NCBI RefSeq assembly: GCF_026157105.1
Contig: NZ_JANPVQ010000001.1
Location: 551,501-615,500, forward strand
DNA from: Sphingomicrobium marinum
GTDB lineage: Bacteria; Pseudomonadota; Alphaproteobacteria; Sphingomonadales; Sphingomonadaceae
DNA: 64,000 bases
Direction: 5' to 3'
The notes under the pieces were generated by a model that ran no database searches, was not told the DNA's origin, and saw nothing but the letters and a program-made list of their open reading frames with translations. The position numbers and the translations under genes were made by a program. The first letter of the stretch is position 1. Each line of letters opens with the position of its first letter. This document shows positions 38,519 through 44,034 of the stretch, one piece after another.

Positions 38519-40663
38519 ATGAGTCGTACCGCAGGCCTGTTGGCCGCCACCGCCATTTTTGTCACCGCACCGGCATTCGCCAGCGACAGTCGCGATGCGG
38601 GCTTCGCCGATGCAGAGCCGGGCGATCCGATCATCGTTACCGGCGTCCGTGACGGCTATGGCACCGACCGCACCAGTACTGCGACCAAGACCGATAGCGA
38701 TCTCAACGACGTCCCCCAGGCGGTCAGCATCATCACCGCCGAGAAGATCAATGACCAGGCGCTGCGTTCGATCAGCGATATCGTCCGCTTCGTTCCGGGC
38801 GTCACGGCCAGTGCGGGTGAGGGGCACCGCGACCAGCTTGCCATCCGCGGCCAGTATACGACCGCGGACTTCTTTTCGGACGGGCTTCGCGATGACGTGC
38901 AGCACTATCGCGGTCTCTACAATGTCGAGCGGGTCGAGGTCGTCAAGGGACCCAATGCGCTGATCTTCGGCCGTGGCGGCGGCGGCGGCATCGTCAATCG
39001 CGTCATCAAGCGGCCGTTCGACGATTACGCCGTGTCTGGCGCCGTGTCGCTCGACAATGAGGGCGCGGGCTTCGTGGAAATCGATGCCAATAGCCCGCTC
39101 GGGCAGGACATTTCGGGTCGTCTGACGGCGACCTACGAACGGTTCGATAACTTTCGCGACATCGAAGGTGACCGCATCGGCGTCAATCCGACGCTGGCTT
39201 TCCAGATCGCGCCCGATACGCGGCTCGATGTCGGCTATGAATACGCCGAGGACCAGCGCGACGTCGACCGCGGCCTGCCCAGCGCGTTCGATGGTACGCT
39301 CGCCAACCCCGCTCGTGCGATTGAAGGGTTCGACGAGACCTTCTTCGGCGTGCGCGGCGTCAACCGGACCGCGCTGACCAAGCATGTGTTCGACGCGAAG
39401 CTGGGCCACGATTTCAGCGACACGCTAAGCGTCACCTCCAAATTGCTCTGGGGCGACTATGACAAGCTCTATCGCAACGCCTTGCCGATCAGCCCGGTCA
39501 CCGACATCGATGGCACCCCCAGCGTCCAGATCGAAAGCTATGAGGATGTGACGCTGCGCCGCAATTTCCTGTGGCAGAACGATCTGGTCGCCGAGTTTGC
39601 GACCGGCGGCGTTGGCCACACGCTGCTTGTCGGCGTGGATTTTGCCGACCAGGGGACCGATGCGGCGCGTCTGCGCGGCTTCTTCGACACCCTGCCGCCC
39701 GAGGACACGCAGACCAGCGGACGCCGCACCTTCGTGCCGCTGGCTGATCCGGTCGCGATCCCCCCGATCACTTTCCGCGGTGGATCGGGCGAGCGCGCGG
39801 CGCGTAGCGATGTCGAGAATTTCGGTATTTACATTCAGGACCAGATCGCGGTGGGCGACCATGTCGAGATCATTGCTGGCCTGCGCCACGATTGGCTCGA
39901 CATTCGGGTGCAGGATTTCATCGGCGATACGGATCTCAGCCGCTCGGACGATTTGCTGAGCCCGCGCTTGGGCGTCGTGGTGAAGCCGACAGAGGATGTC
40001 AGCCTGTGGGCGAGCTGGGCACGAAGCTACCTTCCGCAATCGGGCGACCAGTTTAACAGCCTGTCACCCACCGACGCTGCGCTGAAGCCCGAAAAGTTCA
40101 CCAACCAGGAAATCGGCATCAAGTATCGGGCCTTCGACACGCTCGACATCACGCTTGCCGCCTATCGGCTCGACCGCGAAAACACGACCGCCCTCGATCC
40201 GCTTTCGAGCGAGATCGTGCTGACTGGCGCGCAGCGTTCTGAAGGGGTCGAGCTCGAGGTGCAGGGCAAGGTCGGCGCGCTGTCGGTCACCGGCGGCCTC
40301 GCCTTCCAGAACGCCGAGATCACCGAGGACACGACGTCGGCCCCGGCCGGCCGCGCCGTTCCATTCTCGCCCGATTTCCAGGCATCGCTGTGGGGTCGTT
40401 ACGACATCCGCGATGGGCTCGGCATCGGTGTCGGCATCAGTCACCAGTCGGACATTTTCGCGAGCATTTCGAACGAGGTCGTGGTCGACGGGTTTACCCG
40501 CGTCGATGCGGCGGCATTTTATGATGTCAGCGACAATGTCGCGCTGCAGGTCAACGTCGACAACCTGTTCGATGAGGACGCGATCGCACTCGCCTACAAC
40601 GACAACAACCTCTACCCGATCGCGCCGCGGACGGTTCGCGGTACGCTACGCTTCGCCTTCTAG
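38519..40663 (+). CDS. TonB-dependent siderophore receptor
   Basis: A 714-aa outer-membrane receptor of the TIGR01783 siderophore group. A signal peptide (about residues 1-22, ending APAFA) is followed by the plug domain: VPQAVSIITAEKINDQALRSI, DIVRFVPGV and the conserved GRGGGGGIVNRV segment. A 22-strand-type barrel runs to the terminal RGTLRFAF with C-terminal Phe. The gene lies alone behind a Fur-box-like site, so iron regulation is likely. The specific siderophore cannot be told. Confidence 0.9.
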   Translation: MSRTAGLLAATAIFVTAPAFASDSRDAGFADAEPGDPIIVTGVRDGYGTDRTSTATKTDSDLNDVPQAVSIITAEKINDQALRSISDIVRFVPGVTASAGEGHRDQLAIRGQYTTADFFSDGLRDDVQHYRGLYNVERVEVVKGPNALIFGRGGGGGIVNRVIKRPFDDYAVSGAVSLDNEGAGFVEIDANSPLGQDISGRLTATYERFDNFRDIEGDRIGVNPTLAFQIAPDTRLDVGYEYAEDQRDVDRGLPSAFDGTLANPARAIEGFDETFFGVRGVNRTALTKHVFDAKLGHDFSDTLSVTSKLLWGDYDKLYRNALPISPVTDIDGTPSVQIESYEDVTLRRNFLWQNDLVAEFATGGVGHTLLVGVDFADQGTDAARLRGFFDTLPPEDTQTSGRRTFVPLADPVAIPPITFRGGSGERAARSDVENFGIYIQDQIAVGDHVEIIAGLRHDWLDIRVQDFIGDTDLSRSDDLLSPRLGVVVKPTEDVSLWASWARSYLPQSGDQFNSLSPTDAALKPEKFTNQEIGIKYRAFDTLDITLAAYRLDRENTTALDPLSSEIVLTGAQRSEGVELEVQGKVGALSVTGGLAFQNAEITEDTTSAPAGRAVPFSPDFQASLWGRYDIRDGLGIGVGISHQSDIFASISNEVVVDGFTRVDAAAFYDVSDNVALQVNVDNLFDEDAIALAYNDNNLYPIAPRTVRGTLRFAF

Positions 40664-42099
40664 GCGGCGAGCGCGGCGGCGCGGTCGGCGGCGCGCTTGA
40701 GATCATCGATGAACCGTGCGCGCTGCTCGGCGCGCGCGGCTTCGTCGGGAAGCCGCAAGAGATAGCTTGGGTGGATGGTGACCATCCCGGTCCCGCCGCC
40801 CGGAAGCGCCAGTTCCTCGCCGCGCACCTTGCTGATCGTCACCGTTTTGCCGGTGATCGAGCGGGCCGCGGTGGCGCCAAGCGCAAGCGTGAGCCCCGGT
40901 TGGACGAGTTCGCGTTCGGCTTCCACCCACCAGCGATAATGCTCTATATCGCCGGCCGTCGGCTTGGCGTGAATGCGTTTCTTGCCGCGCTGGACGAACT
41001 TGAAGCGCTTGACGGCATTGGTGACGTACAATTCGCTGCGCTCGATCCCTGCACGTTCGAGCATTTCGTCGAGCAGCTGGCCGGCGGGGCCGACGAAGGG
41101 CTGCCCGGCCTTGTCCTCTTCATCGCCTGGCTGTTCGCCCACGAGCATCAGCGCTGCATTGCGATTGCCCTCACCGAAGACGAGCTGCGTTCCGCTGTTG
41201 GTTCTGTCGGTGCCGTGGCGTTCGCGCGCCAGCTTCGCAAGTTCTTCCCAAGAGGCGATTGGGGCGGCGGTATCGAGCAGGCTCTCCTGCGCGCGGCTGG
41301 TTTCGATCATCGCCGCCTCGCGCGCCTGCGCAGAGGCGAGCAACTCGCCGATCGCTTCGGTTTCCGGCATGTTTTTCCAGTATTTCTTGGGCATTTCGGC
41401 GGTCATAGCTTTCACCTTCACCCGCGCGGGATTGAAGATCGATTTGTAATAGGTCTTCCACGTCTCCTCGACCGGATCTCCGCCTGGCGCGTCCGCCTTG
41501 GTCGCGCCCGGGCTTTCGCGCAGCGTCTCGCCATCCCAATGAATGCAAAGCTGCGGGGTCAAAATCGACCAGCGCATGTTGGTGAAGCGGCGCATGAAGA
41601 AACCGGCTTCGCGCCGCACGATATAATTATCGGGTTCGAACCACGCGACCATGCGTTCGCCGTCTTCATCTTCCACTTCGCGAAAGCGGACGAAAGCGTG
41701 CATCTTGTGCGCATCGCGGCGCACTTCCTTTTCCATTTTGCGGAGGCGATCGAGGAGCGGATCGGCGCGATCCTCCATCGCGCGGCGATTGGTGCGCAGT
41801 TTCCACAACATCGCATATAGCAAGCTGAAGCGTTCGGGATCGCGGTGGCAGATCACCGTTGTAGCCAGACCGATAAAAGACTTGGGTACGGAAAATCCGC
41901 CTCCCGACGGTGCGGGAGGCGGCTGCGAGCCGAACAGTTCGTCGGTTTGCCCCTCCACCGTCCAAGTGACGGCTTCGGGCGGCACGCCGGCCTCGGCAAG
42001 GCCGCGGGCGGCATCGCGCCACCCTGCAAAATCATCCTGCCGATCGAGCGCGACGCGATGAATATCGATCTGCGGCCCGTCGGGCAGGATGCGTGTCAT
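40660..42099 (-). CDS. DUF4130-UdgX fusion with cysteine-free glycosylase domain
   Basis: A 479-aa fusion. Residues ~1-255 match the SAM-linked DUF4130/TIGR03915-type DNA-metabolism domain (AFVRFREVED...AWFEPDNYIVRR). Residues ~280-479 match uracil-DNA glycosylase family 4/UdgX (TIGR03914): GEQPGDEEDKAGQPFVGPAG (321-340), TIHPSYLLR, and the UdgX-specific loop KRIH with His377, the residue that forms a covalent bond to uracil-derived DNA in mycobacterial UdgX. Family members bind a [4Fe-4S] cluster through cysteines, but the expected positions here are Arg294, Thr297 and Tyr388, and the glycosylase part contains no Cys. It is translationally coupled to the upstream HHE gene. Confidence 0.87.
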   Translation of the reverse strand: MTRILPDGPQIDIHRVALDRQDDFAGWRDAARGLAEAGVPPEAVTWTVEGQTDELFGSQPPPAPSGGGFSVPKSFIGLATTVICHRDPERFSLLYAMLWKLRTNRRAMEDRADPLLDRLRKMEKEVRRDAHKMHAFVRFREVEDEDGERMVAWFEPDNYIVRREAGFFMRRFTNMRWSILTPQLCIHWDGETLRESPGATKADAPGGDPVEETWKTYYKSIFNPARVKVKAMTAEMPKKYWKNMPETEAIGELLASAQAREAAMIETSRAQESLLDTAAPIASWEELAKLARERHGTDRTNSGTQLVFGEGNRNAALMLVGEQPGDEEDKAGQPFVGPAGQLLDEMLERAGIERSELYVTNAVKRFKFVQRGKKRIHAKPTAGDIEHYRWWVEAERELVQPGLTLALGATAARSITGKTVTISKVRGEELALPGGGTGMVTIHPSYLLRLPDEAARAEQRARFIDDLKRAADRAAALAA

Positions 42100-42584
42100 T
42101 ATTCGCGATCGTCTTCCATATCGACGCCCTCGAGCGCGCGCTGATATTCCGCAGGCTTGCGCTCCTCGAACTTCTTGGCGAGCTCGACTTCCTTTTCCTT
42201 GGTCAGCCCTTCTTCGGCCGCCGGGAACATGTCCTGCTCTTCCTCATCGATATGATGGAGATAGTCGTGCTTGAGCTTCTTGAACTTCTCCATCCACTCG
42301 GGCGAGCTCGGGTCAAGGTCGGCGATTTCGGCCATAAGTTCGTCGAGTTCATGATGCTCGGCAACCGAGTGCTGGCCATCGTGGCGCAGTTCCGGCTTGG
42401 CGAGCATGGTGGAATAGAGCGTCTCTTCTTCCGCCGCGGCATGCGCGGTCACCTCGGTACGGAAACTCTCGAAAAGCTGCTTGCGCTCGTCATTATTGTC
42501 GGTGGCGCTTTCGATGCGGTTGAGCAGCTCGCGATGCTTGTCGTGGTCTTTTTCAAGCTGCGTGAAAATAGTCGTGTCGGTCAT
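42099..42584 (-). CDS. hemerythrin-like HHE domain protein
   Basis: A 161-aa cytosolic four-helix protein of the HHE/hemerythrin family. Candidate di-iron ligands are present in order: H14/H17, H48-x3-E52, H77/H78 and H110-H111 with E115. Such proteins bind O2, NO or iron and often act in sensing or metal and oxidative-stress defence. The ATG at 42584 has a GAGGAA site upstream. The stop overlaps the start of the DUF4130-UdgX gene by one base, and the radical SAM gene lies just upstream on the same strand. Confidence 0.88.
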   Translation of the reverse strand: MTDTTIFTQLEKDHDKHRELLNRIESATDNNDERKQLFESFRTEVTAHAAAEEETLYSTMLAKPELRHDGQHSVAEHHELDELMAEIADLDPSSPEWMEKFKKLKHDYLHHIDEEEQDMFPAAEEGLTKEKEVELAKKFEERKPAEYQRALEGVDMEDDRE

Positions 42585-42634
42585 AAATCTTCCTCGCAAT
42601 AATTGGCTAACCAACGGAAATCAGCCGCTTTGGT

Positions 42635-43897
42635 TCAGATCGACGCGATGGAATGCGGAGTGAACAGGTCAAGTTGCGACGGTGCGGGAAGGAGCATGGA
42701 CTTAAGGTCAGCCCGGTCAGTCAGCAGCGTCGGGCGCCAGTCGGCGGCAACGATGAAGGGCCTGATCTTCTTGAGGCTGACGGTCAGGCGCGCCACGTCA
42801 TCGAGGCGCAATGAGCGATGCCGCCGCGACGACAGAATGCGCCCGACCGCCTTGGTGCCCAGGCCCGGGACGCGAAGAAGCTGCTCGCGCGTCGCTCGAT
42901 TGACGTCGACCGGAAACTGTTCGCGAAACTTGAGCGCCCAGGCGAGCTTGGGATCGATGTCGAGCGGCAGCATGCCCTTTTCATCGGTCGCCGCGACAAC
43001 TTCGTCCGGCGTGAAGCCGTAAAAGCGCATCAGCCAGTCCGACTGGTAGAGACGATGTTCGCGCATCAATGGCGGGCGCTGCAATGGCAGGACGGCGCTC
43101 GGTTCGGGAATGGGCGAAAAGGCGCTGTAATAGACGCGGCGCAGGCCGAAGCGGTCATACAGCCCCTTGGCGCGCGTCACGATGGCGCCATCATTGGCAT
43201 CGTCGGCGCCCACGATCATCTGGGTCGACTGGCCGCCCGGCGCGAAGCGCGGCGCAGAACGGTATTTCTTGCGCGCGTCCTTATTGTCGAGGATCGCGAG
43301 CTTGGTATCGCCCATCGCGCCTTCGATGCGCTTGTCGTCCTTTTCGGGGGCGAGCCGCTGGAGCCCCGCACGCGTGGGCAATTCGACGTTGATCGACACG
43401 CGATCGGCGTGGAGCCCCGCCTGGTGCACCAGTTCAGGATCCGCGTCGGGAATGGTTTTGAGATGGATGTAACCGCGAAAATCATGATCCTCGCGCAGGC
43501 TACGGGCGACCTCGACCAATTGCTCCATCGTATAGTTGCTCGAACCGATGATGCCTGAGGAAAGGAACAGCCCCTCGATATAGTTGCGCTTGTAGAAATT
43601 GAGCGTCAGCTGGACGACCTCTTCGGCTGTGAAGCGGGCGCGGCGGACATTGCTGCTCTTGCGGTTGATGCAATAATGGCAGTCGAAGATGCAGCTGTTG
43701 GTGAGCAGTATCTTGAGGAGGCTGATACAGCGGCCGTCGGGCGCATAGGCATGGCAAATTCCCATGCCCTCGGTCGAGCCCATACCCTTGCCGCCGCGGC
43801 TATCGCGCTTGGATGACCCCGACGACGCGCACGACGCATCGTATTTCGCCGCATCGGCGAGAATCGCAAGCTTCTGACGAGTATCGAGGTGGGCCAT
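42635..43897 (-). CDS. putative DNA modification/repair radical SAM protein (TIGR03916-type)
   Basis: A 420-aa radical SAM enzyme of the rSAM_link_UDG type. The cluster motif is C69-x3-C73-x2-C76 (NSCIFDCHYC). Typical family features are the N-terminal KLAILADAAKYDASC and MGICHAY, FLSSGIIGSSNYTMEQL, and a C-terminal helix-hairpin-helix (LLRVPGLGTKAVGRILSSRR) suited to DNA binding. Members sit beside TIGR03915/TIGR03914 partners, as here, and their chemistry is unknown. The start at 43897 gives the family-typical length. The longer frame to 43948 adds a non-conserved segment. Confidence 0.88.
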   Translation of the reverse strand: MAHLDTRQKLAILADAAKYDASCASSGSSKRDSRGGKGMGSTEGMGICHAYAPDGRCISLLKILLTNSCIFDCHYCINRKSSNVRRARFTAEEVVQLTLNFYKRNYIEGLFLSSGIIGSSNYTMEQLVEVARSLREDHDFRGYIHLKTIPDADPELVHQAGLHADRVSINVELPTRAGLQRLAPEKDDKRIEGAMGDTKLAILDNKDARKKYRSAPRFAPGGQSTQMIVGADDANDGAIVTRAKGLYDRFGLRRVYYSAFSPIPEPSAVLPLQRPPLMREHRLYQSDWLMRFYGFTPDEVVAATDEKGMLPLDIDPKLAWALKFREQFPVDVNRATREQLLRVPGLGTKAVGRILSSRRHRSLRLDDVARLTVSLKKIRPFIVAADWRPTLLTDRADLKSMLLPAPSQLDLFTPHSIASI

Positions 43898-44034
43898 ATG
43901 TTCACCATACGTTCTATCCCGTGGAGAGAAAAGACCGATGCCCGACACAAGCGCAAAAAACCGCCGGTCGATTGGCGTCTTGCCTTTGCCCGCCTAGCCA
44001 GTAGCTTCGCCGCGACTTTGACAGGGAGACCCTC

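Follow-up and report, generated by a model that had tools for sequence, protein, structure and literature searches.

The 64,000-nucleotide stretch of the Sphingomicrobium marinum genome analyzed here (the window; contig NZ_JANPVQ010000001.1, positions 551,501 to 615,500) carries on its minus strand a gene set that encodes a radical SAM protein of the TIGR03916 family, a hemerythrin-like (HHE) protein, and a fusion of DUF4130 with UdgX, a uracil-DNA glycosylase (UDG) family domain. The reading that best explains this locus, and one that we hold to be probable, is that an SOS operon of the radical SAM and DUF4130-UdgX genes has acquired an HHE stress gene together with an EcfG-type promoter, with dual induction of HHE and UdgX as the consequence. 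DNA damage would lift LexA from a promoter whose -10 element lies inside the LexA box at the radical SAM start, so that all three genes would be transcribed, and general stress would also fire an internal EcfG promoter, from which only HHE and DUF4130-UdgX would be expressed. The first kind of induction is expected because of the conserved sequence together with published SOS control, and the second because of the conserved motif; transcription from both promoters, dual induction, and all of the biochemistry discussed below are predictions made from sequence.

The three gene calls and their operon layout, from which the original prediction started, hold up in profile searches, each protein scoring above its family cut-off. 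The radical SAM gene (42635..43897, minus strand, 420 amino acids) matches TIGR03916 at 569.3 bits (cut-off 343.5), and the HHE gene (42099..42584, minus strand, 161 amino acids) matches PF01814 at 69.1 bits (cut-off 25.3). The fusion gene (40660..42099, minus strand, 479 amino acids) matches TIGR03915 at 215.1 bits (cut-off 112.25) and TIGR03914 at 276.8 bits (cut-off 189.95), and PF13566 as well. The HHE stop codon and the start codon of the fusion share one base (TAATG), as had been noted, and 50 nucleotides (nt) separate the radical SAM stop from the HHE ATG. In a pattern scan, no minus-strand terminator-like site is listed between the radical SAM and HHE genes, and the sole sigma-70 promoter-like site lies elsewhere. 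This layout suggests that the three genes are co-expressed. The original prediction had, however, named a separating promoter as an argument against its grouping, and a predicted EcfG-type promoter does sit between the radical SAM gene and the two genes behind it.

The perfect alphaproteobacterial LexA (SOS) box of the form GAAC-N7-GAAC, GAACGTATGGTGAAC (43900..43914, minus strand), ends 2 nt before the radical SAM ATG. LexA-type boxes number four in the window, against 1.5 expected. A putative -10 element, TATGGT (43904..43909, minus strand), lies inside the box and is marked out by column conservation among 63 loci with a box at the same place; these loci show a TTG-like -35 element (T in 94% and G in 89% at the best two columns), followed by 17 nt and then by TATAAA-like letters in the box. 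The -35-like element of the radical SAM promoter in the window (about 43927-43932, minus strand) is weak compared with these relatives. The arrangement suggests that LexA covers the -10 element and that the radical SAM mRNA is near-leaderless.

Conservation of the box was followed through four sets of loci, which overlap in part. The Sphingomonadaceae sample holds 119 genomes, 81 of them with a TIGR03916 match above cut-off, which together with G116, a partial locus cut off after the radical SAM gene (L082), gives 82 family loci; L070, without a start anchor, was left out of the box counts, leaving 81 anchored loci (G and L numbers are our handles for genomes and loci). Within 250 nt upstream of the anchored radical SAM start, a LexA box in either orientation is present at 79 of these 81 (absent from L039 and L054), where the random expectation is 0.010 per 250 nt. 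By the same count, all 45 additional loci from the window's genus have a box, as do 22 of the 23 from a class sample (two of the 23 are family genomes again; L145 is without a box), loci with short upstream DNA being left out of both, and 77 of 80 named loci (absent from L310, L315, and L321, the last from Xanthomonas). With the GAAC strand alone, the figures are 75/81 for the family, 46/46 for the genus, 21/23 for the class, and 72/80 for the named loci. A distance of 2 nt between the end of the box and the closest in-frame start is seen at 64/81 family, 43/46 genus, 4/23 class, and 40/80 named loci. A conserved GAAC-N7-GAAC box at the promoter, by which membership in the LexA regulon is judged, is found at the radical SAM operon, and this conserved SOS control would tie the radical SAM-DUF4130-UdgX set to DNA damage.

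Positive controls come from the window's own genome, in which a box of the same type lies 12-74 nt before nine repair, nucleotide, or DNA-modification genes: lexA, recA, uvrA, radA, pdeM, and the genes for ribonucleotide reductase, a PA0069-family radical SAM protein, an RmuC-like protein, and a DNA cytosine methyltransferase (the boxed UvrA, cut by the locus end, and the RmuC-like protein score below their family cut-offs). The inspection covered boxes in 40 genome stretches, including two overlapping pairs, and many of the other boxes lie in or beside unrelated open reading frames (ORFs). The DNA cytosine methyltransferase gene (L181:1695-2756, G000:C1 near 630128) has its LexA-type box, GAACATAAATAGAAC, 51 nt upstream, and the second radical SAM gene of this genome, that of the PA0069 family (L173:310-1380, G000:C1 near 1379904), has GAACATAACAAGAAC 24 nt upstream.

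We take COG4277 to be the TIGR03916 radical SAM family. SOS control of a COG1573-COG4277 putative base-excision operon has been published for Bacteroidetes (PMC8565304), in a paper whose available passages also cite earlier reports of a uracil-DNA glycosylase repair system in Verrucomicrobia and Alphaproteobacteria; SOS control of the core pair is therefore treated here as known. The Bacteroidetes operon resembles the one in the window in placing a UDG-family gene and a second repair gene under LexA, but differs from it in that those passages mention neither an HHE gene nor an additional promoter for general stress. Linkage between radical SAM and UDG-family proteins, on which the original prediction had relied, is likewise already on record: in the accessible part of the source, DUF4130 is predicted to be an enzyme related to mutagenesis, with links to SplB-like radical SAM proteins and to UDGs (PMC3765255). 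The operon in the window resembles the TIGR03916/TIGR03915/TIGR03914 set in matching all three models above cut-off, and departs from it by adding HHE and by a UdgX without apparent Fe-S ligands.

The second promoter is predicted in front of HHE. This putative EcfG (general stress) promoter, TGAAC-N16-CGTT (42613..42637, minus strand), is called from motif conservation and has a -35 box that overlaps the radical SAM stop codon TGA. In the portions of the published studies at hand, the EcfG promoter of Sphingopyxis granuli reads GGAAC-N16-CGTT, its AAC hardly varying and its -35 box being most often GGAAC or GCAAC (PMC7083833), and that of Sphingomonas melonis reads GGAAC-N17-20-GTT (PMC6599016). 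Judged by the regulon consensus GGAAC-N16-CGTT, the putative promoter in the window is off in its first base. The published sphingomonad motif does precede HHE orthologues: GGAAC-N16/17-NGTT is found before 30 of 44 non-operon orthologues, 66-94 nt upstream of the anchor, with 0.003 per sequence in shuffles.

A looser form of the motif, NNAAC-N16/17-NGTT, occurs in the HHE operon gaps of five of six family loci, 11 of 19 genus loci, and six of eight named loci (L251, L254, L256, L259, L269, and L292; not L250 or L277); the named loci overlap the genome sample, L269 sharing its gap motif with the G499 locus, and the counts are not additive. Its background is low, at one of 129 radical SAM downstream regions without HHE and 1.8% of 20,000 random 90-nt segments of the fetched loci. 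Measured from the radical SAM stop to the anchor, all 11 genus gaps of 64-81 nt contain the motif, and none of the eight gaps of 42-53 nt does. In the 11 long gaps, the -35 box starts at the radical SAM stop (TGAAC) in ten, the C before GTT is present in all 11, and the spacer varies freely, the AAC and GTT of the loose-motif matches being set by the search pattern. The window genome encodes NepR and a divergent PhyR, and the presence of these two suggests that it has the general stress response switch. A separate general-stress start is thus probable for HHE and the downstream DUF4130-UdgX gene. The word hemerythrin is absent from the main texts of both EcfG regulon papers in the form available (PMC6599016, PMC7083833), and searches of the open-licence literature, supplements excluded, found no paper on hemerythrin with the general stress response and EcfG, on a hemerythrin or HHE stress link in Sphingomonas, or on UdgX with radical SAM proteins.

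Several findings weigh against control of this operon by both LexA and EcfG. Outside Sphingomonadaceae the 2-nt spacing between box and start is not kept, and this spacing, rare in the class loci, is therefore a family trait. The radical SAM promoter of the window has a poor -35 element, and GAAC-N7-GAAC matches in the window's own genome number 48, against 56 for a backwards-pattern control, so that the case for the box rests on its place and conservation and not on its count. On the EcfG side, the strict pattern GGAAC-N15..18-CGTT has no match in the window, and short gaps that contain no EcfG-like motif occur in eight of the 19 genus HHE operons, G077 included; dual control is therefore not universal even in the genus. 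Lastly, the junction between radical SAM and UdgX genes also takes unrelated genes in relatives, and the insertion of HHE may thus be neutral.

The distribution of HHE at this junction is uneven. HHE lies in the gap at 6 of the 82 family loci (the window, G077, G055, G044, G021, and G091) and near the radical SAM gene at none of the 22 loci that represent other families in the class sample, in the stretches covered; of the 24 loci in the class sample, L150 repeats G091 (L058) and L147 repeats G041 (L046), and the sole one with HHE is L150, that is, Sphingomonadaceae G091 again. Within the window's genus (61 genomes sampled, 49 with the radical SAM gene), HHE is in the gap at 19 of 49 loci, and a protein search (E up to 1e-12) finds it in 20 of the 61 genomes, each time at the radical SAM locus; in G513, it lies about 1.5 kb after the radical SAM gene, on the same strand, behind one inserted transporter-like ORF. 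Eight of the 80 named loci carry HHE downstream of the radical SAM gene, on the same strand and 49 to 517 nt away: L250 (from a Pseudomonadota metagenome-assembled genome, MAG), Sphingomonas sp. RIT328, Sphingomonas sp. CFBP 13720, Stakelama flava, Sphingomonas sp. Leaf22, MAG SS_bin_122 (Sphingomonas sp.), Sphingobium cupriresistens, and S. zeae. Two of these are culturable strains that carry the loose EcfG-like motif, Stakelama flava (L256) and S. zeae DSM 100049 (L292). The tabulation of neighbors that the original prediction proposed as a check on HHE enrichment thus comes out divided, with a tight association in the genus but rarity in the family and absence from the loci of other families. 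HHE is not a general member of the radical SAM/UdgX system, and its universal presence in the operon is rejected, 76 of the 82 family loci having no HHE in the gap (one of these, L082, ends with the radical SAM gene).

The same distribution bears on whether HHE could function as a third component, protecting or sensing the redox or iron state for an oxygen-sensitive radical SAM/UdgX system, which we consider unlikely. Such a role would fit the genus, where HHE occurs only at the radical SAM locus (20 of 20 HHE genomes), as well as the conservation of the protein: H14, H48, E52, H72, H77, H111, and E115, which by analogy with the HHE family are candidate metal ligands, do not vary across 24 operon rows (one of them a repeat) and 44 non-operon rows. 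The HHE label is also clustered on the radical SAM tree, with 8 changes compared to 20.8 in shuffles (22 labelled rows of 146; short or duplicate rows were left out of the trees). Across the family sample, however, HHE matches occur in 84 of 119 genomes and are strong (E below 1e-30) in 52, of which 6 lie in the gap and 46 outside it, and the stress promoter motif accompanies non-operon orthologues as described above. The scarcity of HHE in family gaps argues in the same direction, and with a window UdgX that has no apparent cluster ligands, only the radical SAM protein would be left to protect.

It is likewise improbable, in our view, that HHE is a neutral hitchhiker, one of several passengers that arrived without regulatory consequence at an insertion-tolerant junction. 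ORFs that by eye look outer-membrane-like or transporter-like do occur at the junction in relatives, among the loci listed, and the genus HHE operons without an EcfG-like motif are also in keeping with this idea. HHE nevertheless recurs at the junction in several genera, is present throughout one genus clade of 11 rows (11/11, support 100), and is preceded in every long genus gap by a motif that is kept while the spacer diverges. On a tree of 50 HHE orthologues (bootstrap not settled; G079 and G036 left out of the 52 strong ones), the six operon copies fall within a 15-row group (support 100/99) beside nine non-operon copies, and the other 35 rows contain none. Both one insertion with several losses and a few insertions fit this history. 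At L204, L221, and L050, outer-membrane-like proteins (again named by eye) follow the radical SAM gene and precede UdgX where it is in view.

That HHE is a dormancy factor like the ribosome- and FtsZ-binding PA2171 of Pseudomonas aeruginosa, which according to the accessible part of its description represses translation and FtsZ polymerization (PMC13041383), so that the operon would couple repair with growth arrest, is very unlikely: HHE does match the PA2171 persister family NF053874 over residues 10-149 (E 4.4e-17), but its 62.3 bits fall far under the cut-off of 190 and may reflect only shared HHE ancestry.

If, as we favor, an SOS operon has gained an HHE stress gene along with its promoter, then the roles of the proteins can be sketched by analogy with their families. 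In stressed cells, HHE would play an accessory part by handling iron, O2, or NO, without being an essential component of the DNA enzymes. Together, the radical SAM protein and DUF4130 would carry out some base-modifying or repair step, and UdgX would trap uracil or apurinic/apyrimidinic (AP) sites covalently via His377.

The UDG domain of the fusion (residues 308-468; 40696..41178, minus strand), assigned from motifs, Pfam, and model superposition, bears the marks of UdgX, with motif A GEQPGD (containing GEQPG), the R-loop KKRIH, and motif B HPSYLLR; the available text of PMC10359453 defines UdgX by motif A GEQPG, a KRRIH-like R-loop, and motif B HPSxLLR. The fusion model superposes on M. smegmatis UdgX (6ajo/6ail; PMC10359453), with which it shares GEQPG, the KRIH R-loop, and HPSxLLR, at Z 27.9 over 195 residues and a root-mean-square deviation of 1.7, and His377 of the R-loop (40969..40971, minus strand) aligns to the cross-linking His109 of that protein. 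Unlike in M. smegmatis UdgX, the CxxC pair, His, and Cys are R/T, R, and Y in the window: the apparent [4Fe-4S] ligand columns C, C, H, and C of relatives correspond to R294, T297, R365, and Y388, with R294 and T297 standing in place of the CxxC pair at residues 294-297 (41209..41220, minus strand). We read these four columns as probable cluster ligands because they align to M. smegmatis UdgX and are lost jointly. Since UdgX is described, in the passages at hand, as 4Fe-4S containing (PMC10359453) and the ligands are replaced here, the window UdgX appears to be a cluster-less variant and not a typical member; no such variant is described in those passages, which were retrieved from the open-licence literature on UdgX and iron-sulfur.

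Among 175 aligned UdgX rows that have all of these columns, 168 read CCHC (167 with the R-loop His and one with Asn there). The Cys pair is lost in the remaining seven (the window, L269, L237, L014, L061, L076, and L326), all of which retain the nucleophilic His; L326 is the sole one to retain the His of the ligand columns. Ligand loss requires at least four changes on the tree (FastTree), and when L326 is set aside, all four ligand positions are replaced in three separate lineages (window/L269/L237, L014, and L061/L076), in most cases with R-x-R-Y or F instead. The counts do not support an association of ligand loss with HHE, as loss is seen in 3 of 19 HHE rows (one clade) versus 4 of 154 non-HHE rows. 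A more far-reaching reading, which we put forward only tentatively, is that a DNA-damage operon was rewired to general stress, so that UdgX would be induced without DNA damage, and that in parallel at least three lineages arrived at an iron-sparing, oxidation-proof UdgX that shed its [4Fe-4S] cluster and kept the nucleophile. In the class sample, the UdgX-fusion match of L144, L148, L149, L152, L153, and L154 (233-258 bits) is below that of most class loci with an equal 1.5-kb flank, and this branch may have a different UdgX-fusion architecture.

The radical SAM protein, whose family has a single copy in the genome by genome search, retains the CxxxCxxC motif that the original prediction had pointed out (Cys 69, 73, and 76; invariant in an alignment of 51 sequences); its C-terminal helix-hairpin-helix is backed by Pfam matches below their cut-offs only. 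C23, C48, and C57 are likewise invariant in the 51 sequences, which suggests a possible auxiliary cluster. The structure model (pLDDT 83.7) is confident save for residues 23-53 and the C-terminus. Its closest folds are assorted radical SAM enzymes, with HydE first, and no substrate can therefore be assigned; a search of PDB sequences with the radical SAM profile gave no match. The DUF4130 domain, a Pfam match, occupies residues 88-246 of the fusion (41362..41838, minus strand), and in a fold search of the whole fusion the matches were taken up by the UDG part. At 41897-41922, inside the coding region of the fusion and on its coding strand, there is a terminator-like 10-bp GC-rich hairpin followed by ATTTT. 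The operon is flanked by two plus-strand genes, which encode a TonB-dependent siderophore receptor and a DUF885 protein. A role in anti-phage defence was considered and rejected, as no PADLOC model matched any of the three proteins (0 families at E up to 0.001).

The radical SAM-DUF4130-UdgX set is widespread in bacteria, and no chemistry for the set as a whole was found in the open-licence literature. A cluster-less UdgX, if real, would uncouple cross-linking from the Fe-S cluster. The insertion of a stress promoter makes regulation of the operon directly testable in culturable strains, and if dual control holds true, then its last gene, the UdgX fusion, may answer to two alarm systems.

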